Part shown: in pieces, positions 6,370 through 37,756 of the stretch
How the letters are laid out: the number at the start of each line of letters is the position of its first letter
How positions within the stretch are numbered: the stretch's first letter is position 1
DNA from: Streptomyces sp. 11x1
Lineage (GTDB): Bacteria > Actinomycetota > Actinomycetes > Streptomycetales > Streptomycetaceae
DNA: 64,000 nt
Direction of reading: 5' to 3'
NCBI RefSeq assembly: GCF_032598905.1
Contig: NZ_CP122458.1
Span: forward strand, 9,015,001 to 9,079,000
The notes under the pieces: generated by a model
What the model was told of the DNA's origin: nothing
The model's input: only the letters and a program-made list of their open reading frames with translations
Database searches by the model: none
Position numbers and translations under genes: made by a program

Positions 6370-7124
6370 GAGAACGCCTCCACCCGCACCCCCGCCGCCG
6401 CCAGCTCGGCCCGCACCCGCCGGGCCAACTCCACCGAGCCCGGTGTGTCACCGTGCAGGCAGAGAGAGCGGGCCCGGACGAGAATCCGTTCACCCGAGTG
6501 GGCGACGACTGTGCCGGAACAGGCCAGGCCGACGGACCGCTCGACCACGGCGTCGGCGTCCGTGATCACGGAACCTTCCTGGTCGCGCAGCACCAGTGTC
6601 CCCTCGTCGGTGTACGCGCGGTCCGCGAACGCCTCGGTGACGGCGGCCAGCCCGACCCTCTCGGCCAGCTTGAGGAGATGCGAGCCGGGCAGGCCGAGGA
6701 CGGGCAGCGTGGCGTCGGCGAGGAGCACTCCCTCGACCACCGCCGCCGCCTGCTCCTCGTCGTGCACGACGCGGTTGTAGAGCGCGCCGTGCGGCTTCAC
6801 GTACGACACGCGCGTGCCCGCCGCGCGTGCGAAGACCTCCAGGGCACCGATCTGGTACGCCACCTCGGCCGCCAGTTCGGCGGGCGGTACGTCCATCGCG
6901 CGCCGCCCGAAGCCCGCCAGGTCGCGGTACGAGACCTGGGCGCCGATCCGGACCCCGCGCTCGGCCGCCAGCTCGCAGACCCGCCGCATGGTGACCGCGT
7001 CCCCCGCATGGAAGCCGCAGGCCACATTGGCGCTGGTGACGACGGAGAGCAGTCGCTCGTCGTCGGTCAGCGTCCAGCGGCCGAAGCCCTCGCCGAGGTC
7101 GGCGTTCAGATCGATGGAGCTCAT
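6366..7124 (-). CDS. pxpA: 5-oxoprolinase subunit PxpA (LamB/YcsF family)
   Basis: 252 residues. The N terminus MSSIDLNADLGEGFGRW and the element SANVACGFHAGD are the metal and substrate-site signatures of LamB/YcsF proteins, the catalytic PxpA subunit of 5-oxoprolinase. I start at the ATG at 7124 because GGGAG lies about 10 bases upstream; an ATG three codons earlier sits directly on that sequence. The gene is 26 bases downstream of the DUF1445 gene and overlaps pxpB by four bases. The enzyme opens the 5-oxoproline ring with ATP and works with PxpB and PxpC. Confidence 0.93.
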   Translation of the reverse strand: MSSIDLNADLGEGFGRWTLTDDERLLSVVTSANVACGFHAGDAVTMRRVCELAAERGVRIGAQVSYRDLAGFGRRAMDVPPAELAAEVAYQIGALEVFARAAGTRVSYVKPHGALYNRVVHDEEQAAAVVEGVLLADATLPVLGLPGSHLLKLAERVGLAAVTEAFADRAYTDEGTLVLRDQEGSVITDADAVVERSVGLACSGTVVAHSGERILVRARSLCLHGDTPGSVELARRVRAELAAAGVRVEAFS

Positions 7125-7150
7125 GGATCCCATTCTCCCGCTCGGGTGTG

Positions 7151-8035
7151 TCAGAGGACGCGGTACTGCTCGTCGCGGGCGTCGGTCAGGAACATCTGGC
7201 CCGGCGCGTGCGTGATCGCGAACGACGGGCGTGAGGCCGTCACGGCGGCCTGCGGTGTCACCCCGCAGGCCCAGAACACCGGGATGTCGTCCGGCTCGGC
7301 GTCCACGGGGTCGCCGAAGTCCGGACGGGACAGGTCGGCGATGCCGAGGCCCGTCGGCTCGCCGCAGTGCACCGGACCACCGTGCACGGCCGGCAGCAGA
7401 CTGCTCTCCCGGATCGCCGCCGCCAGGTGCGCGGGTGGCACCGGGCGCATCGACACCACCATCGGGCCGTGCAGCCGCCCGGCGGGCCGGCACATGCGGT
7501 CGGTCACGTACATCGAGACGTTGCGGCCCTGCTCGACGTGGCGCATCGGCACGCCCGCGGCGGTCAGCGCCGACTCGAAGGTGAAGCTGCAGCCGATCAG
7601 GAACGACACCAGGTCCTTGCGCCAGACGTCGACCACGTCCGTCGGCTCGGCCACCAACTCGCCGTGCTCCCAGACGCGGTAGCGCGGCAGATCGGTGCGC
7701 AGGTCCGCGCCCGGGGCCAGCGGGGTCGTCCACGCTCCGGCGTCCGTGACGTCGAGCACGGGGCACGGCTTGGGGTTGCGCTGGCAGAACAGCAGCATGT
7801 CGTAGGCCCAGTCGGCGGGCACCGAGATCAGGTTCGCCTGGGTGTGCCCGGCGGCCACCCCGGCGGTGGGGCCCGCGGCGCCCGAACGGAACCGGGCACG
7901 TGCCTCCTCGGGGGTCCACGCGTGCGCGCGCGGGTCGACGGCGGCGAAGGGGCGGTCGTAGGGGGTGGCGGGGGTGGCCGGACGGTCGTGCGCAGCGGTG
8001 GCGGGGCCGGCGTGCCGCGTGGTCATGTCGTTCAC
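7151..8035 (-). CDS. DUF1445 protein, D-glutamate cyclase-like
   Basis: 294 residues from the GTG at 8035, which overlaps the MFS stop codon (GTGA); the first ATG lies three codons inside. The protein matches the DUF1445 (PF07286) family, with hallmarks such as [30 protein letters not shown] and [11 protein letters not shown]. The mammalian relative is D-glutamate cyclase, which interconverts D-glutamate and 5-oxo-D-proline; bacterial members are often called putative hydro-lyases. Its place between a permease and pxpABC supports a role feeding cyclised glutamate or a related compound into oxoprolinase. The exact substrate and stereochemistry are inference. Confidence 0.87.
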
Positions 8036-9351: not shown

Positions 9352-9417
9352 GAGCACCTCGCAGTGAGGGGGGGGAGGGTGCGTGAGGACCGAGCCGTGG
9401 AGAGGGGGCTGTCCAGC

Positions 9418-9447
9418 AAGGTAGAGGATCGTTGAACGATCCTTCAA
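9418..9447 (-). promoter_or_regulatory. Promoter of the MFS-pxp operon with embedded palindromic operator
   Basis: On the minus strand a -35 TTGAAG (9447-9442) and -10 TACCTT (9423-9418) are separated by 18 bases. That spacer is filled by the perfect inverted repeat AGGATCGTTGAACGATCCT (9425-9443, 9-base arms about a central G). The site lies between two divergent starts, 83 bases from the permease and 57 bases from the GntR gene. Its place between -35 and -10 predicts repression by the adjacent FCD-type GntR protein, relieved by a pathway metabolite. Confidence 0.75.
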
Positions 9448-9490
9448 TACCCCTGTTGTTTCGTTCTCGTGTCTGCGCTTGAATTCCGGC

Positions 9491-10189
9491 ATGGCCGCCG
9501 AACTGACGGGACTTGCCGACGACCGTGCCCTCCTGGGACGCACCAGCACCGCCGAGCGGGTTGCGGACATCCTCCGCAGCCGCATCGCCGAAGGCTTCTT
9601 CCCACCCGGGACCCGGCTCTCCGAGGACAGCATCGGCGGTGCCCTCGGCGTCTCCCGCAACACCCTCCGTGAGGCGTTCCGCCTGCTCACCCACGAACGT
9701 CTCCTCGTCCATGAGCTCAACCGGGGTGTCTTCGTCCGGGTGTTGACCGTCGAGGACGTGGCGGACATCTACCGCACCCGCCGTCTCGTCGAGTGCGCCG
9801 TCGTGCGCGGGCTCGGGGATCCGCCGTACCGCTTGGAAGGGCTCGCCGAAGCCGTCGCCGAGGGGCAGCGGGACGCCCGCGAAGGTGACTGGAAAGGCGT
9901 GTCCACCGCCAACATCCACTTCCACCGCGAGCTGGTCGCGCTCGCCGGCAGCGCCCGCACCGACGAGCTGATGCGCAGCGTCTTCGCCGAACTCAGGCTC
10001 GCGTTCCACGTGGTGGACAATCCGCGCGAGCTGTACGAGCCGTACCTGGCACGCAACCTGCTCATCCTGCGGACGCTGCAACGGGGGGAGCGGGCCGAGG
10101 CCGAACGCATGCTGGTCGAGTATCTCGACGACTCGCTGCGGCGCATGGTCGAGGTCTATGGGCGGAGGGTGCGGGACAGCGCCCTGTGA
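9491..10189 (+). CDS. GntR-family (FadR/FCD) transcriptional regulator
   Basis: 232 residues. The winged-helix domain (about 20-90) contains the GntR signature RIAEGFFPPGTRLSEDSIGGALGVSRNTLREAFRLL. The C-terminal all-helical FCD domain (about 95-225) carries the usual metal/ligand residues in D-x-H motifs (NIHFHRELV and the later helices). I use the ATG at 9491. It is transcribed divergently from the MFS-DUF1445-pxpABC operon and is therefore its likely local repressor. The palindrome between them is the likely operator, which may also give autoregulation. The inducer is unknown; 5-oxoproline or glutamate derivatives are plausible. Confidence 0.92.
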   Translation: MAAELTGLADDRALLGRTSTAERVADILRSRIAEGFFPPGTRLSEDSIGGALGVSRNTLREAFRLLTHERLLVHELNRGVFVRVLTVEDVADIYRTRRLVECAVVRGLGDPPYRLEGLAEAVAEGQRDAREGDWKGVSTANIHFHRELVALAGSARTDELMRSVFAELRLAFHVVDNPRELYEPYLARNLLILRTLQRGERAEAERMLVEYLDDSLRRMVEVYGRRVRDSAL

Positions 10190-10230
10190 GCGGCCGCCCC
10201 GTGAGCGGCGCCGTGGCTCGGGGCTCGTTC

Positions 10231-10268: not shown

Positions 10269-10280
10269 GCGTTTGGGTCG

Positions 10281-10303
10281 TTGTCAGACCCAGGACCTAG
10301 TCT
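10281..10303 (+). promoter_or_regulatory. RecA-NDp/PafBC-like promoter of the SMC operon
   Basis: TTGTCAGAC (10281-10289), then 8 bases, then TAGTCT (10298-10303). The mycobacterial DNA-damage promoter consensus is TTGTCRGTG-N8-TAnnnT, with TGTCR and the -10 bases best conserved; all of these match here, and only the last two bases of the upstream element differ. Seven bases separate the -10 from the GTG at 10311, so the transcript would be leaderless. Regulation by DNA damage is inference. Confidence 0.6.
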
Positions 10304-10310
10304 GTGCACC

Positions 10311-11834
10311 GTGACTTCACCCGCATCGACGGACAGTGTTCCGCCCCAGCTCAGCGCGGGGCCGCGCCCCGCGCAGGGGCCGGCCGCCGACGAGGGGCTG
10401 GCGCGGCGGCTGCGCGCGCTCGCCTGCACCGCGCCGCTGCACGACCTGGACGCGCGCAAGGCGAACCTCGCCGGTGAGTACACGGTGTACGGCATGGCCG
10501 AGGTAGCGCTCGCCGCCATCGACCTGGTCACCCTGAACATGGACTTCGACACGGGCGCGGACCACGACCAGATCGTCGCCCGCCTCATCCCGCGCATCGC
10601 CGCCCAGGCACCCGGGCGGCCCGTGGAGGAGCACGAGCGGGTGGCCCGCTGGGTCCTGGAGAACCTGATCAACGTCGGCAGCGTCGACCGCGGCTTCCGG
10701 GCGGTGTACGGGACCTTCACCCCCGACGGCACCTACGTCCGGCGCGACTACGACTTCAAACTGATCGAGGAGGTCCCGGGCTACGGCGGCGGTGTCTACC
10801 TCCGCACGACCGACGAGGCCGTCAACGTTCTCGTGGGCGCCCTCGACACGGACGTCACCAGCGCCCAGATCGCCGCCGAGGTCAAGCTGGAGGTCCTGAT
10901 CAGCCGGGGCCGCCTCGCCGACGCCCAGCTCGCCGCCGAGCAGGCCCGCTACCGGACCGTGCAGTACTCCGAGACGCTGCGCAAGGCCCTGGACGCGACC
11001 CGGCGCAACGTCCGCGCGGTCGACTGGCTCCAGACCGTGCCCGACATGATCGCCGAGGCCCTCGACCACGTCGCCGACCGCTACCGCCACGAGAACGCGA
11101 TTCTCACGAACATCCGCAAGGCCCGGGACGAGTCGGAGGATCCCGAGCAGAAGCGGCGCGCCGCCGAGCTGGTCGACATCGTCAAGGACTGCATCCGGCG
11201 GCACACACAGCTGCAGTCCCGCCTGCTGGAGGCCGGCCCGCTCTTCCGTGCCGAGCAGGACCGGCAGGCCTTCGCCACCCCGATGACGACCTCCGGGATA
11301 GACCTGTACGGGCATCTCGTCGGGCCCCTGCTGCCCCTGCCCGTGGAGCAGGCGCGGCGGGTGACCGACGCGTTCTTCGCTCGCGGCACCGGTTTGCGCA
11401 CACCCGGATCCGTGCGGGTCGGGGACCTCGTGGAGCTGCTGTTCACCCCGCCCGTCGAGCGGGAGCACCTCGGGGTGGAGATGCCGGAGCCCGATCTGAT
11501 CGCCACGCCCGACGACAGCCGGTTCAGCGAGGAGCAGCTGGCTGCGGCGAAGGTGCTGCTGGATCTGCCGGCGGACGCGCCCCGGCGGCTGTCGGGGCTG
11601 TTGGCGCAGGCGCGGCTCCAGGACCCCGAACTGCCCTATCTGGTCGCCCTGTTGGCTGTGCACGCGGCGAGTCCGCCGGTCGGTACGGCCTATCGGCAGG
11701 GGGAGGAGAGGCTGCTGTTCGCCGTGGACGACGGGACGGAGCTGGACGACCCCGAGTTCGGTGGGGCCGATCTGATCGTGGGCATGGCCCTGCTGGATTC
11801 CGCGGGCATGGCGGCGGACAGGGAGGCGGTGTGA
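10311..11834 (+). CDS. MksF/JetA-like kleisin subunit of an SMC complex (putative)
   Basis: 507 residues from a GTG start that appears leaderless. The protein is mainly helical, with charged helices in the middle (residues about 190-330, for example AQLAAEQARYRTVQYSETLRKALDATRRN) and an acidic C terminus. It has no enzymatic motif. Order and sizes (507, 292 and 1565 residues, the last an SMC-type ATPase) match mksF-mksE-mksB or Wadjet jetA-jetB-jetC operons, so I assign the kleisin role by context. In those systems the kleisin bridges the ATPase heads and binds the MksE subunit. Sequence identity to known JetA is not obvious by eye. The next gene starts 148 bases later. Confidence 0.65.
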   Translation: MTSPASTDSVPPQLSAGPRPAQGPAADEGLARRLRALACTAPLHDLDARKANLAGEYTVYGMAEVALAAIDLVTLNMDFDTGADHDQIVARLIPRIAAQAPGRPVEEHERVARWVLENLINVGSVDRGFRAVYGTFTPDGTYVRRDYDFKLIEEVPGYGGGVYLRTTDEAVNVLVGALDTDVTSAQIAAEVKLEVLISRGRLADAQLAAEQARYRTVQYSETLRKALDATRRNVRAVDWLQTVPDMIAEALDHVADRYRHENAILTNIRKARDESEDPEQKRRAAELVDIVKDCIRRHTQLQSRLLEAGPLFRAEQDRQAFATPMTTSGIDLYGHLVGPLLPLPVEQARRVTDAFFARGTGLRTPGSVRVGDLVELLFTPPVEREHLGVEMPEPDLIATPDDSRFSEEQLAAAKVLLDLPADAPRRLSGLLAQARLQDPELPYLVALLAVHAASPPVGTAYRQGEERLLFAVDDGTELDDPEFGGADLIVGMALLDSAGMAADREAV

Positions 11835-11982
11835 GGACGCCCTCGGGTTTTTGCCCGTGGTCGGTGTGCGGCTGCTTCGTGGCTGACCGTGCTCACGCGG
11901 CCGGGCCGCACATGTCACCGTCCCGCGCCCCCGCGAGGGCGCTTGCCGTACCCCCTGGTTATGAGATCGAGGAGTTCCTGTC

Positions 11983-12861
11983 GTGAGTGAGCATGTCGAG
12001 TGGGGTGAGCCGGAGACGGCAGCCGCTCCGGTGGCTGCCGCCCTCACTCCCGCCGACGCCGCCGACGCCGCTCGGCTCGTCTCTTTCGGGCTTCAGCCGA
12101 AGCTGCAGCCCGCCCGGGACCAGGAGTACGGGGAGCTGTTGCGCCGGTACCGCGAGGATCCGCCGTTCGCCCGGCTCGCCGACGCCGTCGCCACCGGGCT
12201 GGGGCTGGTCGTCCTGGAGGTGTCGCCGCGGGCGGGGATGGCGGTGACGGCCGCCGAGGACTCCGTCTTCGCGGTGCGGATGGGCGAGTACGCACGACGG
12301 ACGTCGGCGGACTCGGTGGACCGCTTCCTGCACGGGCTGGCCCACCTCGCCGTGGCCGCGATGGCGTTCCCCCGCCCGGAGGACCTCGCGGACGACGGAT
12401 ACATCGGGCGGGTCTCGGTCAACGGGGTCGACGCCTTCGTACGGCAGGCCTGCCGACGCCTGGAGGAGCGGGCCGAGGAGCAGGGCGAGAACACCGACCC
12501 GGCGACCGACGCGCCCGGCCTGGAGTCGGCCTGGCGGATCTGGGCGCGACGCAGCTCCACCGGGGCCACCAAGGACGCCCGCCGGCTCGCCGGGTCCACC
12601 ACCGGCATCATCGGCAAGGCGGTGGGCTTCCTGACCGACTCGGGCTTCCTCCAGCGCACCGGCGACGACAACGGCGGTACGTATCGCACGACCGCGCGTT
12701 ATCAGCTCCAGGTGCGGGACATGGCGGGCAGCGCCGCGATGGCGGAACTGCTGGAACTGGGTGTCGTACCGGTCACCGACGGTTCGGCCACGCTGCTGCC
12801 CGCCGAGGACACCGACGACCTGGAGCTGGTGGCCGACGCCGGACTGCCGTTCCACTCCTGA
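11983..12861 (+). CDS. MksE/JetB-like winged-helix subunit (putative)
   Basis: 292 residues from a GTG with GAGGAG eight bases upstream. The middle part, ARLADAVATGLGLVVLEVSPR..., and the C-terminal half with TTGIIGKAVGFLTDSGFLQRTGDDNGGTYRTTARYQLQV look like helix-turn-helix and wing segments, as in MukE/MksE/JetB. That C-terminal piece reads as a typical winged helix. It lies between the putative kleisin and the SMC ATPase, 83 bases before the latter. In the MukBEF/MksBEF family this subunit binds the kleisin and DNA. The assignment is from gene order plus the visible winged-helix pattern. Confidence 0.65.
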   Translation: MSEHVEWGEPETAAAPVAAALTPADAADAARLVSFGLQPKLQPARDQEYGELLRRYREDPPFARLADAVATGLGLVVLEVSPRAGMAVTAAEDSVFAVRMGEYARRTSADSVDRFLHGLAHLAVAAMAFPRPEDLADDGYIGRVSVNGVDAFVRQACRRLEERAEEQGENTDPATDAPGLESAWRIWARRSSTGATKDARRLAGSTTGIIGKAVGFLTDSGFLQRTGDDNGGTYRTTARYQLQVRDMAGSAAMAELLELGVVPVTDGSATLLPAEDTDDLELVADAGLPFHS

Positions 12862-12944
12862 CCCCGACCTCCGTCCCCCACCACCGTCCTCGACCTCCTC
12901 CCCCCCCGCACGATCCACCGTCACGACCGCGAAAGTCCGCCGCC

Positions 12945-15900
12945 ATGTACGAGCTGTCCCGGGTCCGCCTCTACTCCATCGGGCCGGCCGGTGCGCGCTA
13001 CGCCGACACCGTGCTGGACCTGAGAGGTGTGGGCGAGTACGTGCCCGACCCCGCGCCGCAGCAGGCGGAGTTCTTCGAGGACGAGCCGACCGAGCCGCCG
13101 CGCAGGCCCGCGCCGGCCGGGGTGCTCTTCCTGGAGAACGGCGGCGGCAAATCCGTACTGCTCAAGCTGATCTTCTCGGTGATGCTGCCGGGCCACCGGA
13201 ACACGCTGGGCGGCGCCAGCTCCGGTGTGCTGCGGAAGTTCCTGCTCGCGGAAGACTGTGGGCACGTCGCCCTGGAGTGGCAGCACACGCTGACCGGCGA
13301 GTGCGTGGTCGTGGGCAAGGTGAGCGAGTGGCGGGGGCGCCAGGTCTCCAACGATCCGCGGAAGTTCGCCGAGGCCTGGTACTCCTTCCGGCCCGGCCCG
13401 GGTCTGAGCCTCGACAATCTGCCCGTCGCCGAGGCCACCGCCGTACGGCCGTCCGTCGAGGGCACGTCCGGCGCGCGGGGGCGGCGGCGGACCATGAAGG
13501 GGTTCCGGGACGCCCTCACCGACGCGGGCAAGGCGTATCCGCACCTCGAAGTGCACTGGGAGGAGATCCACGACCGCTGGAACGAGCATCTGACGGACCT
13601 CGGTCTCGATCCCGAACTCTTCCGCTACCAGCGCGAGATGAACGCCGACGAGGGCGAGGCCGCCGGCCTCTTCGCGGTGAAGAAGGACTCCGACTTCACC
13701 GACCTGCTGCTGCGGGCCGTGACCGACACCCGGGACACGGACGGACTGGCCGACCTTGTCTCCGGATTCGGCAACAAGCTCGGGCGGCGGGCGGAACTGA
13801 TCGCCGAACGGGACTTCACGGCCGGGTCCGTGGATCTGCTGAGCCGGATCGTGGAGGCGGCCGAGGGACGCTCCAGGGCCCGGGACGTCCACGCGGGCGC
13901 CGAGCGGCGCACCCGTACCCTGGCGCGGCGGCTGTCGGCGCGTGCCGCTCGGGAGCGACTGCGGGGCACCGATCTCGCCCAGCGGGTCACCGCGGCCGCG
14001 TACGCGGTCACGCACTCCGAGGCCGCCCGGGACCGCAGCGCCCTCATCGCCGCCGAACTGGCCTACCGGCACGCTTCGTTGGCGCTCGCCGCCGCCGAGA
14101 AGGCGGCCGCGGCGCAGAAGCGGGAGCTGGCCGACGCGCGCACCCTGCACTCCGCCTGGCAGGCCGCCGAGGCGGTGCTCAGGCACCGGGCCGCCGCCGA
14201 CCGCGTCGCCCGGGTGGCAGCCGCCATCCAGGAGGCAGAACGGGACGCCGCTCCCGCGCTCGCCGCCCGCGCCAAGGCCGCCGTCGACCTCGTACGCGCC
14301 CTGCACGCCGCCGCCGAGAGCGCCGAGGAGCTCGCGAACGAGGGCGAGGAGAAGTCGGCCGCCCTGCAAGAGGTCGGCGAGACCGCCTACCGGGACTCCA
14401 CCGTCGCCGCCACCGAGGCGCAGCGCGCCCGCAGCGAGATCGGACACCTGAAGCAGCGGCTCAGCGAGGTCGAGCAGGAGACCGCCGAGGCGGTCCGCGC
14501 GGGCTGGCTGGACGACAGCGCGCCCGACGCCGACCCGGCTCGGGCCGCGCTCGCCGCCAGCGACGCCGAGAAGACGGCCGTCGCCGCCTGGGACACCGCG
14601 CGCGAGACCTCGCGCCGCGCCTCCGAGCACGCCCGGGAGGCGGCCGCCGCCGAGTCCCGCGCGGAGCTCACGGCCGCCCGCGCGGCGGACGCGGCGATCG
14701 CCGCCGAGCGCGCCTACGACGGGGAGCGACGCACGGCGGAGGCCCTCGCGGCGGAGGAGCGGCTGGCGGAGCTGCTGAGTCTGCCGGGTGCCGTGGGCCG
14801 GGCAGCGGGCGGGGCCTCGGGCGCGGTGCCGGGTCCTCGCAGGGGAGGGGCCGAGGCCGACGTCGACGGCGGATCGGACGGTCCCGGTGGCTCGGGTGGC
14901 TCGAGCGGCGACGGCGGCCCCCTCACCCCCGAGGAGCTGGACCGCTTCGCCGACGAACTGCGCGAACTGCTCGACGAGAACGTGTCGTCCGCCGAGCGCC
15001 ACCTCTTCGAGCTGCGGACCGCCGCGGCCGACGACGCCCGCATCCTCGGCGCCCTCGGCGACGGCGGACTGCTGCCGCCCGGCCCGGACGTCCTGGCCAC
15101 CGTCGAGTTCCTCGGTGAGCACGGTATCCCCGCCCTCCCCGGCTGGCGCTACCTCGCCCAGGCTGTCGACCCCACCGACCACGCCCGCGTGCTCGCCGCG
15201 CGTCCCGAACTGGTCGACGGCGTGATCATCACCGACCCGGACTCGCACGCCCGGGCCCGCGAGGCACTGAGTGACGCCGCACTGCTCCCGAGGTCCGCCG
15301 TGGCCGTCGGCACGGCGGCGGCCCTGCTGGCCCCGACGCCGCCGATGGACGCGGGCGACGGGCACGCTTCCGACGTCTTCCTCGTCCCGCCGAACCCGGC
15401 CATGCACGACGAGCACGCGGCGGACGAGGAGCGGCAGGCGCTGCGCGCGCGGGCCACCGAGCGGGACGAGGAGATCCGGGAGCTGGCGGCCCGCCTCGGC
15501 AAGGACCGGGAGCTGGCGGCCCGGCTCTCCTCCTGGCGCACGGGCTGCCCGGCGGGACGGCTCACCGAACTGGCGGACACCGCGCGGGAGACGCGTGCCT
15601 TCGCCGAGGAGGCCGAGGCGGAGCTCGCCGAGGCGCGGACCGTGCGGGCCGAGGCCGAGGAGGCGGCCGCCGAGGCGGCGCAGGTGCGGGACGAACGGCA
15701 GGAGGCAGCACAGAAGTCCCGCCGTGCCGCCGACGCCCTCGCCGGACTGGCCTTCCGGCTGCGCGAGCGGGCCGGCTGGCAGGTCAAGCTCCGTGAACTC
15801 GCCGACGAGGCCGCCGAGTCCGAGGCCCGCGCCCAGTCCTGCCTGGACCGGGCCCGCGCCGCCGACGAGGACCGGCGTGCCGCCCAGCGCGGCGCGGACG

Positions 15901-17642
15901 ACGCCCGCCGCACGGCGCGTGCGCTGCGCGCCGAGCGGGCCGAGATCGCGGGCGCCCCCGACGACGTACCGGAGACGGACTCCGACGCGTCCAAGCAGCC
16001 CCTCGCGGCCCTCCGCGAGGCCTACCGCGCCGCGTCCCAGGTGTACGAGAAGGTCGGCGTCGATGCCGACCTGCGGGCCGAACAGGCGCGGGCCGAGAGC
16101 GACGAGAGCGCCGCGATCGCCGAGCTCGACCGGCTCACCAACAAGGTCCGCAACCGCGCCGAGCAACTGCTCCAGTCGCCCGACGGCTCCGACGGGCCGT
16201 CGCGGCAGGCGGCGGCCGCGCGTGCCGAGGAACTCGTCCAGCTCCTGGAAACCCGGATGTCCACCGCGAGCGAGCAGCTCGGCCGGTTGCGCGGCGAGGC
16301 CGAGCGGCACGCGCCACAGGACGGCGAGGCGCACACCGAACTGCCCGAGGAACTGCTCCCGCGCGACGCCGACCACGCCCAGGCCCTGCTGCGCACGGCC
16401 ACGGCCGAACTGGCCGCCCGCGCCGAGGCGTTGACCCAGGCCCGGGAGGCCCACGCCGAGCTGCTGGAGTCCCACCGCGCCGCCGAGGACGCGGCCGGCG
16501 GCTTCGACGAGACCGCCGCCCTCCTGCGGGACCTCCTGCGCGACCACTCCGCTGACGACGACCAGGAGGAGCCCGAGCCGTACCCCGGAGGGTTGGAAGA
16601 GGCCCGCAGGGCCGCCGGGGAGGCCCGCCGTTCCCTGCGCGGCTGCGCCGCCGACCTCTCCGCCGCCGAGGGCTCCGTGCGCGAGGCGAGCGACGTCCTC
16701 GTACGCCACGCCAACTCCACGCGCTACGAACAGGTCCGTACGCCCGCCCGCCAGCAGATCCGGGAGCTGCCCGCCGCCTCGCTCCCGGAGCACGCGCAGA
16801 AGTGGGCCGACGCGTTCGCGCCCCGACTCCGGGTCCTCACAGACGAGTTGGCCCAGCTGGAGCGCAACCGGGACTCCATCGTCGACCGGCTGCGGGGGCT
16901 CGTGGAGTCGGCCCTCGCGACGCTGCGCTCCGCCCAGCGGCTCTCCCGGCTCCCCGAGGGCCTCGGGGAGTGGTCCGGTCAGGAGTTCCTCCGGATCCGC
17001 TTCGAGGAGCCCGACCAGGCCACCCTCACCGAACGTCTCGGCGAGGTCGTCGACGAGGCGACCCGCGCGGCCGTGAAGAAGAACTCCGACATGCGCCGCG
17101 ACGGCATGTCCCTGCTGCTGCGGGGCGTCAGCGCCGCGCTCCAGCCCAGGGGGGTCGCCGTGGAGATCCTCAAGCCGGACGCGGTGCTGAGGGCCGAACG
17201 CGTCCCCGTCGGCCAGATGGGCGACGTCTTCTCGGGCGGCCAGCTGCTCACCGCGGCCATCGCCCTGTACTGCACGATGGCGGCGCTGCGCAGCAACGAC
17301 CGGGGCCGGGACAAGCACCGTCACGCCGGCACCCTGTTCCTGGACAACCCCATCGGACGCGCCAACGCGACGTACCTGCTGGAACTCCAGCGCGCGGTCT
17401 CGGACGCCCTCGGCGTCCAGCTCCTCTACACCACCGGGCTCTTCGACACGACGGCCCTGGCGGAGTTCCCCTTGGTCATCCGGCTGCGCAACGACGCCGA
17501 CCTACGAGCGGGCCTCAAGTACATCAGCGTGGAGGAGCACCTCCGCCCGGGTCTGCCCCCACAGCCCCAGCCGGGAGAGACGGCCCACACGGAGATCACG
17601 GCGACACGTATGTACAAGAGGCCCACCACGACCGCGCCCTGA
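12945..17642 (+). CDS. SMC/MukB-like ATPase (MksB/JetC type)
   Basis: 1565 residues. Walker A is ENGGGKS at residues 64-70. The ABC signature FSGGQ is near 1429 and Walker B LFLDNP near 1465. Between them lie two long Ala/Glu/Arg-rich coiled coils (about 290-610 and 840-1340). These flank a compact domain at about 690-822 (GGLLPPGPD...IPALPGWRYL...DGVIITDP) that I take as the hinge. A Gly/Ser-rich linker at about 614-662 just precedes it. This is the architecture of a cytosolic, DNA-translocating SMC protein, not the housekeeping Smc, which is shorter and has a different Walker A. It follows two small partner genes. No JetD-like topoisomerase/nuclease gene is adjacent; the next gene is convergent and metabolic. 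Confidence 0.88.
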   Translation: MYELSRVRLYSIGPAGARYADTVLDLRGVGEYVPDPAPQQAEFFEDEPTEPPRRPAPAGVLFLENGGGKSVLLKLIFSVMLPGHRNTLGGASSGVLRKFLLAEDCGHVALEWQHTLTGECVVVGKVSEWRGRQVSNDPRKFAEAWYSFRPGPGLSLDNLPVAEATAVRPSVEGTSGARGRRRTMKGFRDALTDAGKAYPHLEVHWEEIHDRWNEHLTDLGLDPELFRYQREMNADEGEAAGLFAVKKDSDFTDLLLRAVTDTRDTDGLADLVSGFGNKLGRRAELIAERDFTAGSVDLLSRIVEAAEGRSRARDVHAGAERRTRTLARRLSARAARERLRGTDLAQRVTAAAYAVTHSEAARDRSALIAAELAYRHASLALAAAEKAAAAQKRELADARTLHSAWQAAEAVLRHRAAADRVARVAAAIQEAERDAAPALAARAKAAVDLVRALHAAAESAEELANEGEEKSAALQEVGETAYRDSTVAATEAQRARSEIGHLKQRLSEVEQETAEAVRAGWLDDSAPDADPARAALAASDAEKTAVAAWDTARETSRRASEHAREAAAAESRAELTAARAADAAIAAERAYDGERRTAEALAAEERLAELLSLPGAVGRAAGGASGAVPGPRRGGAEADVDGGSDGPGGSGGSSGDGGPLTPEELDRFADELRELLDENVSSAERHLFELRTAAADDARILGALGDGGLLPPGPDVLATVEFLGEHGIPALPGWRYLAQAVDPTDHARVLAARPELVDGVIITDPDSHARAREALSDAALLPRSAVAVGTAAALLAPTPPMDAGDGHASDVFLVPPNPAMHDEHAADEERQALRARATERDEEIRELAARLGKDRELAARLSSWRTGCPAGRLTELADTARETRAFAEEAEAELAEARTVRAEAEEAAAEAAQVRDERQEAAQKSRRAADALAGLAFRLRERAGWQVKLRELADEAAESEARAQSCLDRARAADEDRRAAQRGADDARRTARALRAERAEIAGAPDDVPETDSDASKQPLAALREAYRAASQVYEKVGVDADLRAEQARAESDESAAIAELDRLTNKVRNRAEQLLQSPDGSDGPSRQAAAARAEELVQLLETRMSTASEQLGRLRGEAERHAPQDGEAHTELPEELLPRDADHAQALLRTATAELAARAEALTQAREAHAELLESHRAAEDAAGGFDETAALLRDLLRDHSADDDQEEPEPYPGGLEEARRAAGEARRSLRGCAADLSAAEGSVREASDVLVRHANSTRYEQVRTPARQQIRELPAASLPEHAQKWADAFAPRLRVLTDELAQLERNRDSIVDRLRGLVESALATLRSAQRLSRLPEGLGEWSGQEFLRIRFEEPDQATLTERLGEVVDEATRAAVKKNSDMRRDGMSLLLRGVSAALQPRGVAVEILKPDAVLRAERVPVGQMGDVFSGGQLLTAAIALYCTMAALRSNDRGRDKHRHAGTLFLDNPIGRANATYLLELQRAVSDALGVQLLYTTGLFDTTALAEFPLVIRLRNDADLRAGLKYISVEEHLRPGLPPQPQPGETAHTEITATRMYKRPTTTAP

Positions 17643-17713: not shown

Positions 17714-19264
17714 CTACGCGTCGGCCTTCAAGAGATCCGCACACTTCTCGCCGATCATCATCGTCGTGATGCACGGATTCACGGTCACCAGATCCGGCAT
17801 CACCGACCCGTCCGCCACCCGCAGCCCCTCGATCCCCTTCACCCGCAGCCGCGCGTCCAGCGGGGCCGAGGCGTCGTCGTCCGCACCCATCTTCACCGTG
17901 CAGGCCGGGTGGTAGACGGTGTTGTGGGTCTTGCGGATGTAGTCGAACAGCTCCTCGTCGGTCCGCACGTCGGGTCCGGGCGCCAGCTCGGCCCCGGCCC
18001 ACCCGCTCAGCGCCGGCTGCGCCGCGATCCGCCGGGCGAGCCGGAGACCGTACGTCATCACGCGCACGTCGTGCTCGTGCGTGAAGTAGCGCGGGTCGAC
18101 CTTCGGCTTGTCCCGGTAGTCGCGGGTGCGCAGCCGCACGGTGCCCCGGGACATCGCCCGCGTCACGTTCGGCGTCAGACAGAACGCGTTCTCGGACGTG
18201 GGGTAGCCGTGCCGGGCCGTGTTCATGTCGAACGGCACGGCCCCGTAGTGGAACATCAGGTCCGGCCGGTCCAGGCCCGGCTCGGTGTCGTAGAAGATGC
18301 CCGCCTCCCACCACTGGTTGGACGTGGTGGGCATCGGCTGTGCGGCCTCCCACATGATGACGCCCTCGGGGTGGTCCTGGAGGTTCTCGCCGACGCCCGC
18401 CGAGTCCACGACCACGTCGACACCCACCTCGCGCAGCTGTTCGGCGGGGCCGATGCCGGAGAGCATCAGGATCTTGGGAGTGTCGATGGCGCCGCAGGAG
18501 ACGACGACCTCACGCCGCGCGCGCACCGTCCGGGTGTGGATCAGGTCCGGGTCCAGATACTCGGCGCCGACGCAGCGCCGCCCGTCGAGCACCAGCTTCT
18601 TGGCGCGGACCCCGGTGCGCACGTCCAGGTTCGGACGCCGGCCCATGATCGGGTGCAGATACGCCACCGACGAGGACTGGCGGATGTTGTTCTCGTCGGA
18701 GTTGATCTGGAACCAGTTGGCGCCCCGGACCACCGTCGTGCCCGTGTTGAACGGCGTCGTCGGGATACCCACCTGGACGCACGCCTCCAGCAGGGCGTTG
18801 CCGCACGGGTCCTCGCTCTTGATGGTGCGCAGCTTCACCGGTCCGGAGCGGCCGTGGTGGTCGCCGGGCGCGTCGTTGGTCTCCAGGCGCTGGTAGAGCG
18901 GGAAGAGATCGGCCGCCGACCAGCCCGTGCAGCCCGCGGCCGCCCAGTCGTCGAGGTCCTCCGCCGGTGCCCAGAAGGCGATGCAGGAGTTGTGGGACGA
19001 GCAGCCGCCGAGGACCTTCGCCCTCGCGTGCCGCATGAAGCTGTTGCCGCTGTCCTGCGGTTCCACCGGGTAGTCCCAGTCGTAGCCGGACTCCAACAGG
19101 CCCATCCAGCGTTCCAGCTTCAGGACGTCGTCGTCGCCGACGTCGCTGGGGCCCGCCTCCAGGACGCACACCGTGACCGACGGGTCCTCGGAGAGTCTGG
19201 CCGCCACCACGTTGCCCGCGGTGCCGCCGCCGACCACTACGTAGTCGAACTCGTCTTCGAACAT
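17714..19264 (-). CDS. GMC-family FAD oxidoreductase (choline dehydrogenase-like)
   Basis: 516 residues. The N-terminal FAD-binding motif is VVVGGGTAGNVVAARL. The GMC signatures GGCSSHNSCIAFW and VVVSCGAIDTPKILMLSGIGP are present. The C-terminal active-site region has the His in NTVYHPACTVKMG and VNPCITTMMIGEKCADLL. It is related to choline dehydrogenase and alcohol oxidases, which oxidise an alcohol to an aldehyde in the cytoplasm. It is last in a minus-strand trio with an APC permease and an aldehyde dehydrogenase. Choline oxidation to glycine betaine is plausible; another amino-alcohol is possible. AGGAGG precedes the ATG. Confidence 0.88.
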   Translation of the reverse strand: MFEDEFDYVVVGGGTAGNVVAARLSEDPSVTVCVLEAGPSDVGDDDVLKLERWMGLLESGYDWDYPVEPQDSGNSFMRHARAKVLGGCSSHNSCIAFWAPAEDLDDWAAAGCTGWSAADLFPLYQRLETNDAPGDHHGRSGPVKLRTIKSEDPCGNALLEACVQVGIPTTPFNTGTTVVRGANWFQINSDENNIRQSSSVAYLHPIMGRRPNLDVRTGVRAKKLVLDGRRCVGAEYLDPDLIHTRTVRARREVVVSCGAIDTPKILMLSGIGPAEQLREVGVDVVVDSAGVGENLQDHPEGVIMWEAAQPMPTTSNQWWEAGIFYDTEPGLDRPDLMFHYGAVPFDMNTARHGYPTSENAFCLTPNVTRAMSRGTVRLRTRDYRDKPKVDPRYFTHEHDVRVMTYGLRLARRIAAQPALSGWAGAELAPGPDVRTDEELFDYIRKTHNTVYHPACTVKMGADDDASAPLDARLRVKGIEGLRVADGSVMPDLVTVNPCITTMMIGEKCADLLKADA

Positions 19265-19327
19265 GGGGAGTTGACCTCCTGGGTGCTGTGCTGTCGAGCT
19301 GCTGTGCCGTGCTGTGCTGGGCGGCGC
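19265..19327 (-). repeat. Short GTGCT/CAGCA-rich spacer repeat
   Basis: The 63 bases between the permease stop and the oxidoreductase start are a degenerate run of GTGCT-type pentamers on the plus strand (CAGCA on the transcribed strand). It ends in the AGGAGG ribosome-binding site. It looks like slippage-prone spacer DNA. Confidence 0.5.
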
Positions 19328-20917
19328 TCAGTCCGCCGCCGGGGTGGCGAGAGGGGCGGCGGGCGGCGCGGGCGGCGTGGTGTCGGCCTCGGCGACCACG
19401 CGGTGCTCGGCGAGTACGCCGGTCTTGTGCCGCTGGACGAACCAGTAGTAGGCGAAGCCTCCGCCGCCGATGATCCCGACGAAGAGGACCGCGCCCCACT
19501 GCAGGTACCAGTGGAACGGGGCGGCCGCGTTGTAGACCGCCGCGCGCGGCCAGATCAGGTTGAGGGTCATGCCCGCGCCCCAGAGCACGGCGAGGATGTT
19601 CACGGGCAGGCCCCAGCGGCCCAGCGAGAACCGGCCGTCCCCGGCGGGCTGCCACGTGCCGCGCAGCCGCGCCACCAGCATCGGCACGGTGACGCCCAGA
19701 TAGGCCAGGTAGATCATGATGATGCCGATGCTGGTCACCACGGTGAAGATCTGCGGCTGACGGATGTTGACCACGAGGATCGCCAGCGCCAGCACGCCGA
19801 TGATCACGGTCGGCAGGACCGGCGTCTGGAAACGCGGGTGACACTTGGCCAGCTTCGAGGACGCGGGCAGGTTGTTGTCGCGGGCCATCGCGAACGCCAG
19901 CCGGACGGCCGCGGTGTGGACGGCCAGAGCGCACACGGTGACCGCGATCAGGACGCACCACAGCATGGCCTTGCCGGCCGTCGGGCCGAGCACGTTGAGC
20001 ACCACGTACTGCAGGCCGTCCGTGGACAGCTGCTCGCCCTTCAGGCTGGAGACGCTCATCAGCGCCAGGAGCAGGATCAGACCGCCGAGGACGAACGAGG
20101 CGACGATCGCCCGGATGATCGCGCGCGGGGCGTTGCGGGTCGGGTCCAGGGACTCCTCGCCGAGCGAGGCGGCCGTGTCGAAGCCGTACATGACGTACGC
20201 CGACGCCAGCGACGCCACGAGGAACGCGCCCAGGTAGCCGTTGCCGTAGCCGTCCCCCGTGCCGTTGGTCTCCAGGACCACCTGCGGGCCGCGGGTGATG
20301 TGGACGGCGAACAGCACGATCAGGACGACGGTGGCGATCAGCTCGATGAACACGCCCGCGGTGTTGATCCGTGCCATCAACTTGACGCCGAAGGCGTTCA
20401 CCAAGGTGGTGAACAGGATCAGCACCGCGGCCAGGACGACCGCGTTGGTCGCCACGTCGTACTTGCCGGTGCCGTCGCCGACGAACTGGAACACGTCTGA
20501 GATCTGCGGCAGCGTCAGCTGGTAGGCCAGCGCTACCGCCGCGATCGACACGACGGAGGCGGCCAGCATCATCCAGCCCGCGAGCCAGCCCAGATGCGGA
20601 TTGCCTATCTTCTTCGACCAGTTGTAGACCGAGCCCGCGACCGGGTAGCGGGCGGCCAGCTCGGCGAAACACAGCGCGACCATGAACTGGCCGACGAACA
20701 CCATCGGCCACGACCACCAGTAGGCCGGGCCGCCACTGGCGAAGCCGAAGTAGAACAGCTGGAAGGTGCCGGTCAGGATCGAGATATAGCTGATCCCGGC
20801 GGCGAAGGTGTGGAAGTTGCCCAGGGTGCGCTTGAGTTCGGGCTTGTAGCCGAACTCGGTGAGTTCGGTGTCGTCGGAGGAGTTCTTCGGTCCGGTGGGT
20901 TGCTCGATGGTCGTCAT
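19328..20917 (-). CDS. APC-superfamily amino acid/amine permease
   Basis: 529 residues with about 12 transmembrane helices. The N-terminal family region FGYKPELKRTLGNFHTFAAGISYISILTG is followed by the conserved YPVAGSVYNWSKKIGNPHLGWLAGW. A middle segment MYGFDTAASLGEESLDPTRNAPRAI is typical of the GABA/ethanolamine/choline branch of APC transporters. It probably imports the substrate of the flanking dehydrogenases. The start is the ATG at 20917; longer upstream extensions lack membrane character. It is 67 bases downstream of the aldehyde dehydrogenase and so is in the same operon. Confidence 0.9.
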   Translation of the reverse strand: MTTIEQPTGPKNSSDDTELTEFGYKPELKRTLGNFHTFAAGISYISILTGTFQLFYFGFASGGPAYWWSWPMVFVGQFMVALCFAELAARYPVAGSVYNWSKKIGNPHLGWLAGWMMLAASVVSIAAVALAYQLTLPQISDVFQFVGDGTGKYDVATNAVVLAAVLILFTTLVNAFGVKLMARINTAGVFIELIATVVLIVLFAVHITRGPQVVLETNGTGDGYGNGYLGAFLVASLASAYVMYGFDTAASLGEESLDPTRNAPRAIIRAIVASFVLGGLILLLALMSVSSLKGEQLSTDGLQYVVLNVLGPTAGKAMLWCVLIAVTVCALAVHTAAVRLAFAMARDNNLPASSKLAKCHPRFQTPVLPTVIIGVLALAILVVNIRQPQIFTVVTSIGIIMIYLAYLGVTVPMLVARLRGTWQPAGDGRFSLGRWGLPVNILAVLWGAGMTLNLIWPRAAVYNAAAPFHWYLQWGAVLFVGIIGGGGFAYYWFVQRHKTGVLAEHRVVAEADTTPPAPPAAPLATPAAD

Positions 20918-20984
20918 GAGCGGACTCCTGATGGGCCTGGGGAGGGGAGGGGGGAGCGGCTCTGCGGGTGCCGAGATCAGCGGA

Positions 20985-22451
20985 CTAGGCGAACCAACCC
21001 TGCGGTGCCGGGGCCGTGTTGCGCCAGATGTGCTTCGCCTCGCGGTATTCGGCGAGTCCCGTCGGCCCGAGCTCACGGCCGAATCCGGACTGCTTGCATC
21101 CGCCCCACTCGGCCTGCGGCACATAGGGGTGGTAGTCGTTGATCCACACCGTGCCGATCCGCAGCCGGGCCGCCGTCCGCCGGGCCCTGGCCTCGTCCGT
21201 CGTCCATACGGCGCCGGCCAGACCGTAGATGGTGTCGTTGGCCAGCCGTACGGCCTCGTCCTCGCTGCTGAACCGTTCCACCGTCAGCACCGGCCCGAAC
21301 GACTCGTCCTGGACCACGGACATCGAGGCCGTGCACTCGTCCAGGACGGTCGGCAGGTAGTAGAAGCCCTCGTCGTACGCGTCGCCGCTCGGCCGCTCGC
21401 CGCCGCAGCGCAGCACCGCGCCCTCGGCGATGCCCCGGGCGACGTACTCCTCGACCTTCGCGCGGTGGGCGGCGGAGATCAGCGGGCCGGTCTGCGCCCG
21501 CTCGTCGAAGGGCCCGCCCAACCGGATCTCCCGCGTCCGGCGGACGACCTCGTCGACGAACCGGTCGTGCAACGAGTCCTCCACCAGCAGACGGGCGCCC
21601 GCCGAGCAGACCTGCCCCGAGTGCAGGAAGACCGCGGTCAGCGCCATGTCGACGGCCGTGTCGAAGTCGGCGTCCGCGAAGACGATGTTCGGGTTCTTGC
21701 CGCCGAGCTCCAGGGCGACCTTCTTCACGCTCGCGGCGGCGTTGGCCATCAGCCGACGGCCGGTCTCGAGGCCACCGGTGAACGAGACCAGGTCCACATC
21801 GGGGTGCTCCGACAGCGGGGCACCCGCCTCGGGACCGGCGCCCAGGACGAGGTTGGCCACGCCCTCCGGCACCCCGGCCTCCGCCAGCAACCGCATCAGA
21901 AGGATCGCGGTGTGCGGGGTCAGCTCGCTCGGCTTCAGCACGAACGTGTTGCCGGCCGCGAGCGCCGGAGCGACCTTCCAGGCCGTCTGGAGCAGGGGAT
22001 AGTTCCAGGGGGTGATCAGCGCGCACACCCCGACCGGCTCGTACACGACCTGGCTGTCGACGCCCGGCTGACCGGTGTCGACGACCCGGCCCGTCTCGGC
22101 GGTGGCCGCACGCCCGAAGTAGCGGAAGCAGTTCGCGATGTCGTCGATGTCGTACTCGCTCTCCACCAGCCGCTTGCCGGTGTCGAGGGACTCGGCGCGG
22201 GCGAGCGCGTCCTTGTCGCGTACGAGGAGATCAGCCACCCGAAGCAGCAGGTCACCGCGATCGGCGGGCGAGGTGGTGGGCCACGGGCCCTCGTCGAAGG
22301 CGCGCCGCGCGGCGGCGATCGCCTCCACGGTGTCCTTGGCGCCGGCCTCGTCGACGACCGCGACCAGGCTGCCGTCGGCGGGGCAGCGGATCTCACGCGT
22401 CCGGCCGTCGAGCGCGGATCGCCATGCTCCGCCGATGAAAAGTTCGGGCAT
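20985..22451 (-). CDS. NAD-dependent aldehyde dehydrogenase (betaine aldehyde dehydrogenase-like)
   Basis: 488 residues. The general-base Glu is E248 in VALELGGKNPNIVF and the catalytic Cys is C282 in HSGQVCSAGARLL. The Rossmann element SFTGGLETGRR and ITPWNYPLLQTAWKVAPALAAGNTFVLKPSE are also present. This is the standard ALDH length and layout. As first gene of the operon with a permease and a GMC oxidoreductase, it likely oxidises the aldehyde made by the GMC enzyme, for example betaine aldehyde to glycine betaine. The substrate is inferred. TTGACT occurs twice, 11 bases apart, about 90 bases upstream on the coding strand and may be part of the promoter. Confidence 0.92.
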   Translation of the reverse strand: MPELFIGGAWRSALDGRTREIRCPADGSLVAVVDEAGAKDTVEAIAAARRAFDEGPWPTTSPADRGDLLLRVADLLVRDKDALARAESLDTGKRLVESEYDIDDIANCFRYFGRAATAETGRVVDTGQPGVDSQVVYEPVGVCALITPWNYPLLQTAWKVAPALAAGNTFVLKPSELTPHTAILLMRLLAEAGVPEGVANLVLGAGPEAGAPLSEHPDVDLVSFTGGLETGRRLMANAAASVKKVALELGGKNPNIVFADADFDTAVDMALTAVFLHSGQVCSAGARLLVEDSLHDRFVDEVVRRTREIRLGGPFDERAQTGPLISAAHRAKVEEYVARGIAEGAVLRCGGERPSGDAYDEGFYYLPTVLDECTASMSVVQDESFGPVLTVERFSSEDEAVRLANDTIYGLAGAVWTTDEARARRTAARLRIGTVWINDYHPYVPQAEWGGCKQSGFGRELGPTGLAEYREAKHIWRNTAPAPQGWFA

Positions 22452-37733: not shown

Positions 37734-37756
37734 TTGTCAGTGCCCTCGATTACTGT
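37734..37756 (+). promoter_or_regulatory. RecA-NDp/PafBC-type DNA-damage promoter, exact consensus match
   Basis: TTGTCAGTG (37734-37742), 8 bases, TACTGT (37751-37756) matches TTGTCRGTG-N8-TAnnnT at every defined base. Transcription would start near 37763, about 32 bases before the ATG of the next gene. In mycobacteria this motif is activated by PafBC after DNA damage. Activity here is inferred. Confidence 0.75.

Follow-up and report, generated by a model that had tools for sequence, protein, structure and literature searches.

Wadjet systems loop DNA to cut small circles, and those described so far use, to our knowledge, the nuclease JetD for the cutting. The locus considered here raises the question of what such a complex may be doing when the nuclease gene is not there. 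It lies in a window (the whole stretch of 64,000 nt that was analysed) from the genome of Streptomyces sp. 11x1, in which three co-oriented ORFs on the + strand, spanning 10311-17642, are jetA, jetB and jetC. Our preferred reading, to which we assign a probability of about 0.55, is that they encode a domesticated, nuclease-free JetABC of the type III Wadjet kind, fixed in Streptomycetaceae and with a sister lineage among some of the Frankiaceae, that acts as a damage-responsive second condensin. The corresponding history, in which an SMC defence complex that cut plasmids shed its nuclease and became a damage-induced second condensin in Streptomycetaceae and the Frankiaceae sister lineage, is offered more tentatively, at a little under even odds. 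The features referred to below are as follows.

9479..10189, + strand: GntR/FCD regulator, upstream neighbour, outside the complex (family match)
10270..10276, + strand: CGTTTGG element upstream of the -35 box (column conservation in 71 Streptomycetaceae jetA promoters)
10281..10303, + strand: RecA-NDp-like promoter, TTGTCAGAC-N8-TAGTCT, 7 nt upstream of the GTG start
10311..11834, + strand: jetA, kleisin subunit (MukF/JetA-like), 507 aa (PADLOC JetA3 and fold matches)
11983..12861, + strand: jetB, winged-helix KITE subunit (MukE/JetB-like), 292 aa (JetB homology and fold)
12945..17642, + strand: jetC, SMC ATPase, 1565 aa (PADLOC JetC3 and motifs)
JetC residues 64-70, 1429-1433 and 1464-1469: motifs ENGGGKS, FSGGQ and LFLDNP, respectively
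JetC residues about 610-665: low-complexity insert before the presumed hinge
17714-22451, - strand: GMC oxidoreductase, APC transporter and aldehyde dehydrogenase (read from sequence), between jetC and a sensor kinase

Genes, folds and family

The sequence-only reading had proposed three co-oriented genes for a kleisin, a winged-helix subunit and an SMC ATPase, and this much of it stands: the ORFs are found where it had placed them (JetA being 507 aa when counted from the GTG, with the reading frame remaining open farther upstream), and the three roles agree with the PADLOC matches and the predicted folds. What has to be amended is the family, which is that of type III Wadjet and not MksBEF; the latter is ruled out by sequence, there being no relevant family in Pfam or NCBIfam. 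JetA matches the type III Wadjet model JetA3 with an E value of 2.7e-186 and JetC the corresponding model JetC3 with 1404 bits, while JetB is 47.6% identical (E 3e-77) to the JetB of a complete JetABCD locus, neither of these two JetB proteins being matched by any PADLOC model.

Sequence searches with JetC, JetB, JetA and JetD against solved structures yielded chance matches at best, or none. As to fold, MukBEF and Wadjet entries rank first for the predicted structure of JetA, which resembles MukF/JetA, and JetB resembles MukE/JetB: the top seven Foldseek matches are all MukE-MukF, MukBEF or Wadjet entries, and the top two from VIA-align are Wadjet JetABC entries.

The JetC motifs that had been pointed out earlier (Walker A ENGGGKS, FSGGQ and Walker B LFLDNP) are indeed present, and are invariant in an alignment of eight relatives. 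All three occur in the window and in nine of nine core loci, in ten of the eleven Frankiaceae rows of the tree described below (the frame chosen for L119 is without ENGGGKS), and in nine of ten JetD-bearing accessory loci, L031-L040 (L039 reads LVLDNP). A glutamate is usual in Walker B where LFLDNP has asparagine, and LFLDNP occurs in JetD-bearing copies as well.

JetD and the lineage that lacks it

JetD was not found anywhere in the 64,000-nt window, which bears out the earlier claim that it is missing next door. Only 71 bases separate jetC from the next gene, a convergent ORF of GMC oxidoreductase type (read from sequence, without family assignment), so there is no space for a jetD remnant. 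Nor did a distant jetD, the search for which had been suggested together with that claim, turn up in the Streptomyces sp. 11x1 genome (10.67 Mb in two contigs, 100% complete) with any of three queries: Pfam JetD_C, for which controls were positive in two genomes, with C. glutamicum among the controls found; a JetD protein query, run without a positive control; and PADLOC JetD3, the same search that detects JetD3 in 48 other genomes.

Of 392 Streptomyces genomes, 388 have JetC3 (378 of the 380 good ones) and 48 have JetD3 (32 of them strong, with E < 1e-40), so that at least 340 genomes have JetC3 without a JetD3 match. Within the family Streptomycetaceae, JetA3 is present in 148 of 150 genomes and in all 17 genera; at the level of the class the figure is 61 of 394, made up of 40 Streptomycetaceae, 19 Frankiaceae, one member of a third family (f46) and one weak match (f17). 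Of the 35 Frankiaceae genomes, 19 have JetA3 and 12 have JetD3, the latter match being strong in four. Relatives with names include Kitasatospora and Actinacidiphila, and on the Frankiaceae side Frankia, Parafrankia and Pseudofrankia. Plasmids yielded five relatives, all below 60% identity, and phage records no jetABC copy.

Inspection of individual loci tells the same story. In the accessory loci L031-L040 (picked for high JetC3 scores; L040 begins after jetA) JetD directly follows JetC in ten of ten, and nine further accessory copies are all JetD-bearing, namely L241-L244 from Streptomycetaceae (wider stretches of L051-L054), L105, L106 and L120 from Frankiaceae, and the two plasmid copies inspected, L239 and L240; the gene is thus present in every one of the 19 accessory and plasmid copies inspected. 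It is found in none of nine window-like core loci (L041-L049), each with more than 6 kb of sequence past jetC, and in none of 80 named loci (72 Streptomycetaceae and 8 Frankiaceae), these having been retrieved with a JetD-free query and hence not being a random sample; at least 1.5 kb beyond jetC is available for 60 of the 72 and 5 of the 8. The JetD-free state is a lineage trait, not a local loss.

The position of the locus is conserved within Streptomycetaceae. The upstream GntR regulator, already proposed as a flank, is confirmed by its family match as a GntR/FCD gene, and homologues of it lie near 48 of the 72 named Streptomycetaceae loci; for a PxpA-like protein, a large sensor kinase and an MFS protein the counts are 45, 44 and 43 (all lower bounds, as some loci end early, and with names other than GntR read from sequence). 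None of the four has a homologue near any of the eight named Frankiaceae loci. Homologues of the GMC and APC genes lie near just 9 and 10 of the 72 loci, so the three-gene block downstream of jetC has the look of a local insertion. A further partner that might be conserved was also sought, with 57 ORFs of the window, L045 and the Frankia loci L151 and L152 as queries (called by a rough procedure that overlooked the GntR gene of the window); within about 10 kb, no gene other than A, B and C has homologues beside the loci of both families. In L151 a TerD-like gene (read from sequence; 6582-7172, minus strand) lies upstream of jetA, with homologues near four of the eight Frankiaceae loci.

These observations bear on the idea that the Wadjet is in fact complete, its nuclease being supplied from another site by a gene that is either unrelated or has diverged strongly. 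Known Wadjets cut with JetD and JetABC is otherwise intact here, and one of the Frankiaceae genomes whose locus lacks JetD has, on a different contig, a partial match to JetD3. However, given the negative outcome of the Pfam, PADLOC and protein queries in the Streptomyces sp. 11x1 genome, and of the search for a gene recurring beside A, B and C, we regard this explanation as improbable.

When the A, B and C sequences are joined and a tree is built from 32 rows, ten JetD-free Streptomycetaceae and eleven Frankiaceae rows (two of the latter uncheckable for JetD) form one clade of 21 rows with SH-aLRT support of 100, its neighbour being the JetD-bearing Frankiaceae copy L105, on a long branch. 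With JetA only, the JetD-free clade is not resolved and the same forks are open. Family f46 contributes a single locus, L122, in which JetABC is again without JetD and lies upstream of what look like gap, pgk and tpi genes. It falls outside the main clade, and the AU test rejects a grouping of all 22 JetD-free rows (p 5e-8), so that it may represent an independent loss of JetD. The trees would be read most simply as a single ancient loss in the main clade, with L122 having lost the gene separately.

The stretch before the presumed JetC hinge is 52-134 residues long in the 21 JetD-free rows as against 48-52 in the 11 JetD-bearing ones and 49 in L122, and the longer versions, which most of the JetD-free proteins have, are variable and of low complexity. 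Residues conserved in JetABCD but altered in both JetD-free groups number only five in A, two in B and five in C; they form no cluster that we would regard as a lost JetD interface.

In principle, the three genes could be what is left of a defence island that has been decaying since jetD was lost. JetD has gone, and elsewhere in the same genome there is a decayed piece of jetA: a second, partial JetA3-like stretch with one internal TGA (C1:197366-198229; about 9366-10229 of locus L123), with no JetB, JetC or JetD match in the surrounding 20 kb, which is probably what remains of an accessory copy. For the locus itself, however, dN is 0.038-0.118 against dS of 0.47-0.66 (NG86, five pairs), indicating purifying selection on all three genes, and with the motifs intact and the promoter conserved throughout the family, decay seems very improbable indeed.

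The promoter of jetA

The site upstream of jetA had been likened to the RecA-NDp motif, whose consensus is TTGTCRGTG-N8-TAN3T; scoring used its 12 fixed positions. The likeness holds for position and for 10 of the 12 bases, but the -35 box has GAC instead of GTG, accounting for both mismatches. With only 7 nt between the promoter and the GTG, a leaderless transcript is likely. Mismatches number 0, 1, 2, 3 and 5 in 20, 17, 13, 4 and 1, respectively, of 55 core Streptomycetaceae loci, so that 54 of 55 lie within three; of the 50 with two or fewer out of 12, 48 have the site exactly 7 nt from the start, an agreement that goes beyond chance. For the named Streptomycetaceae loci all 71 that are testable lie within three mismatches (66 of them at 7 nt), and about half of these, like the window, are without the TG of the -35 box. 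Outside the family the picture is different: none of 16 Frankiaceae/f46 loci, and one of seven testable named Frankiaceae loci, comes within three mismatches. Among JetD-bearing loci one of 16 matches the consensus, perfectly and at 24 nt from the start; this is L053 (wider L244), an accessory four-gene JetABCD locus with a distant jetA (37% identity).

The exact RecA-NDp pattern occurs at 24 sites in the Streptomyces sp. 11x1 genome, and the reversed pattern at none. Ten of the 24 precede repair, replication or nucleotide genes: RecA, UvrB, RuvC, Ung, DnaX, DnaG, ThyX and Ogt score above the curated cut-off, and YoaA/DinG-like and Hel308-like helicases below it, in frames truncated at the end of the stretch. 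At ten others (20 of the 24 were scanned) the following ORF belongs to no repair family. The type of promoter that had been proposed for jetA is therefore one that is conserved across Streptomycetaceae and that also stands before recA and repair genes. One perfect site, TTGTCAGTG-N8-TAN3T, lies within the window itself (37734-37756, + strand), 38 nt before a 302-aa ORF without a Pfam match, and another site of this type in the genome (L137) is followed by a SUKH-4 immunity-type protein. The genome also has two tandem WYL-domain genes, which we take to be good candidates for PafB and PafC.

It must also be weighed whether the second condensin is constitutive and unconnected with DNA damage, the likeness of its promoter being incidental. 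Around half of the 71 named loci do not have the GTG of the -35 box, and the jetA promoters carry an extra element, CGTTT, that is conserved at 94-99% per column across the 71 but is not kept at the genome's 24 other RecA-NDp-type sites and so suggests a different regulator. Against this, 20 of the 55 core loci have no mismatch to the consensus, and the motif marks repair genes in the same genome; we think a constitutive role unlikely, though it deserves to be taken seriously. The same observations do qualify the damage-responsive reading, since the GAC of the window's -35 box, common to about half of the named loci, makes damage control of this particular copy less sure, while the missing TG and the jetA-specific CGTTT together mean that another regulator may act too.

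Possible function and relation to known systems

On the damage-responsive reading, a kleisin-KITE-SMC complex JetA-JetB-JetC would descend from a type III Wadjet that lost its nuclease JetD, JetABC then becoming a fixed chromosomal complex of Streptomycetaceae. By analogy with Wadjet and MukBEF it would still load onto DNA and extrude loops by ATP hydrolysis, while presumably being incapable of cutting. DNA damage would raise its level through the PafBC pathway, and the complex may then compact, tether or segregate damaged or replicating chromosomes, so that its role would be in repair or segregation. Counting against such a damage condensin are the Frankiaceae, where the JetD-free loci mostly have no promoter motif and JetA3 is patchy.

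The most probable of the alternatives, although in our view still unlikely, is that defence against mobile elements persists without cutting, JetABC binding topologically to small DNA circles (plasmids and circular integrative elements) and in this way trapping or silencing them. The closest relatives are JetABCD defence systems, and damage signals can come with invading DNA; but jetABC is near-universal, conserved and set among common neighbours, which accessory copies are not, and its promoter is of a type common to housekeeping repair genes.

If the preferred reading is correct, a near-universal, nuclease-free relative of Wadjet separates loop extrusion from cleavage in nature, and a major antibiotic-producing group, with hundreds of Streptomyces species, has a candidate second condensin; it would also offer a directly testable example of defence genes turned to housekeeping. 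The combination of a near-universal JetD-free complex with a damage-type promoter suggests a defence weapon tamed into a tool for chromosome care. With no Pfam or NCBIfam model available, and with a Wadjet call that expects JetD, a housekeeping SMC complex of this kind would easily be missed.

Among known systems, the MukBEF/MksBEF complexes share with the Streptomyces complex a MukF-like kleisin fold, a MukE-like KITE fold, an SMC ATPase and the lack of a nuclease (some MksBEF operons are without the nuclease MksG), but the Streptomyces proteins have no sequence match to the Pfam or NCBIfam models and sit on the Wadjet III branch. MksBEFG of Corynebacterium glutamicum and EptABCD of mycobacteria are actinobacterial SMC complexes that restrict plasmids and carry a nuclease, MksG or EptD, which the Streptomyces complex does not; they are likened to it here by description, not by sequence. 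With the RecA-NDp/PafBC regulon it has in common a promoter resembling the one found before recA and repair genes, the extra CGTTT element setting the jetA promoter apart, and we know of no SMC complex in that regulon. Closest of all is type III Wadjet, JetABCD, with which JetA, JetB and JetC are homologous over most of their length and which has the same gene order and ATPase motifs; it differs in possessing JetD, in being accessory where the Streptomyces complex is near-universal in its family, in mostly not having a RecA-NDp-type promoter, and in a pre-hinge stretch of JetC that is shorter than in most of the JetD-free rows. Membership of Wadjet is not claimed, because JetD was not found; the Streptomyces complex is related to type III JetABC and would work like it.
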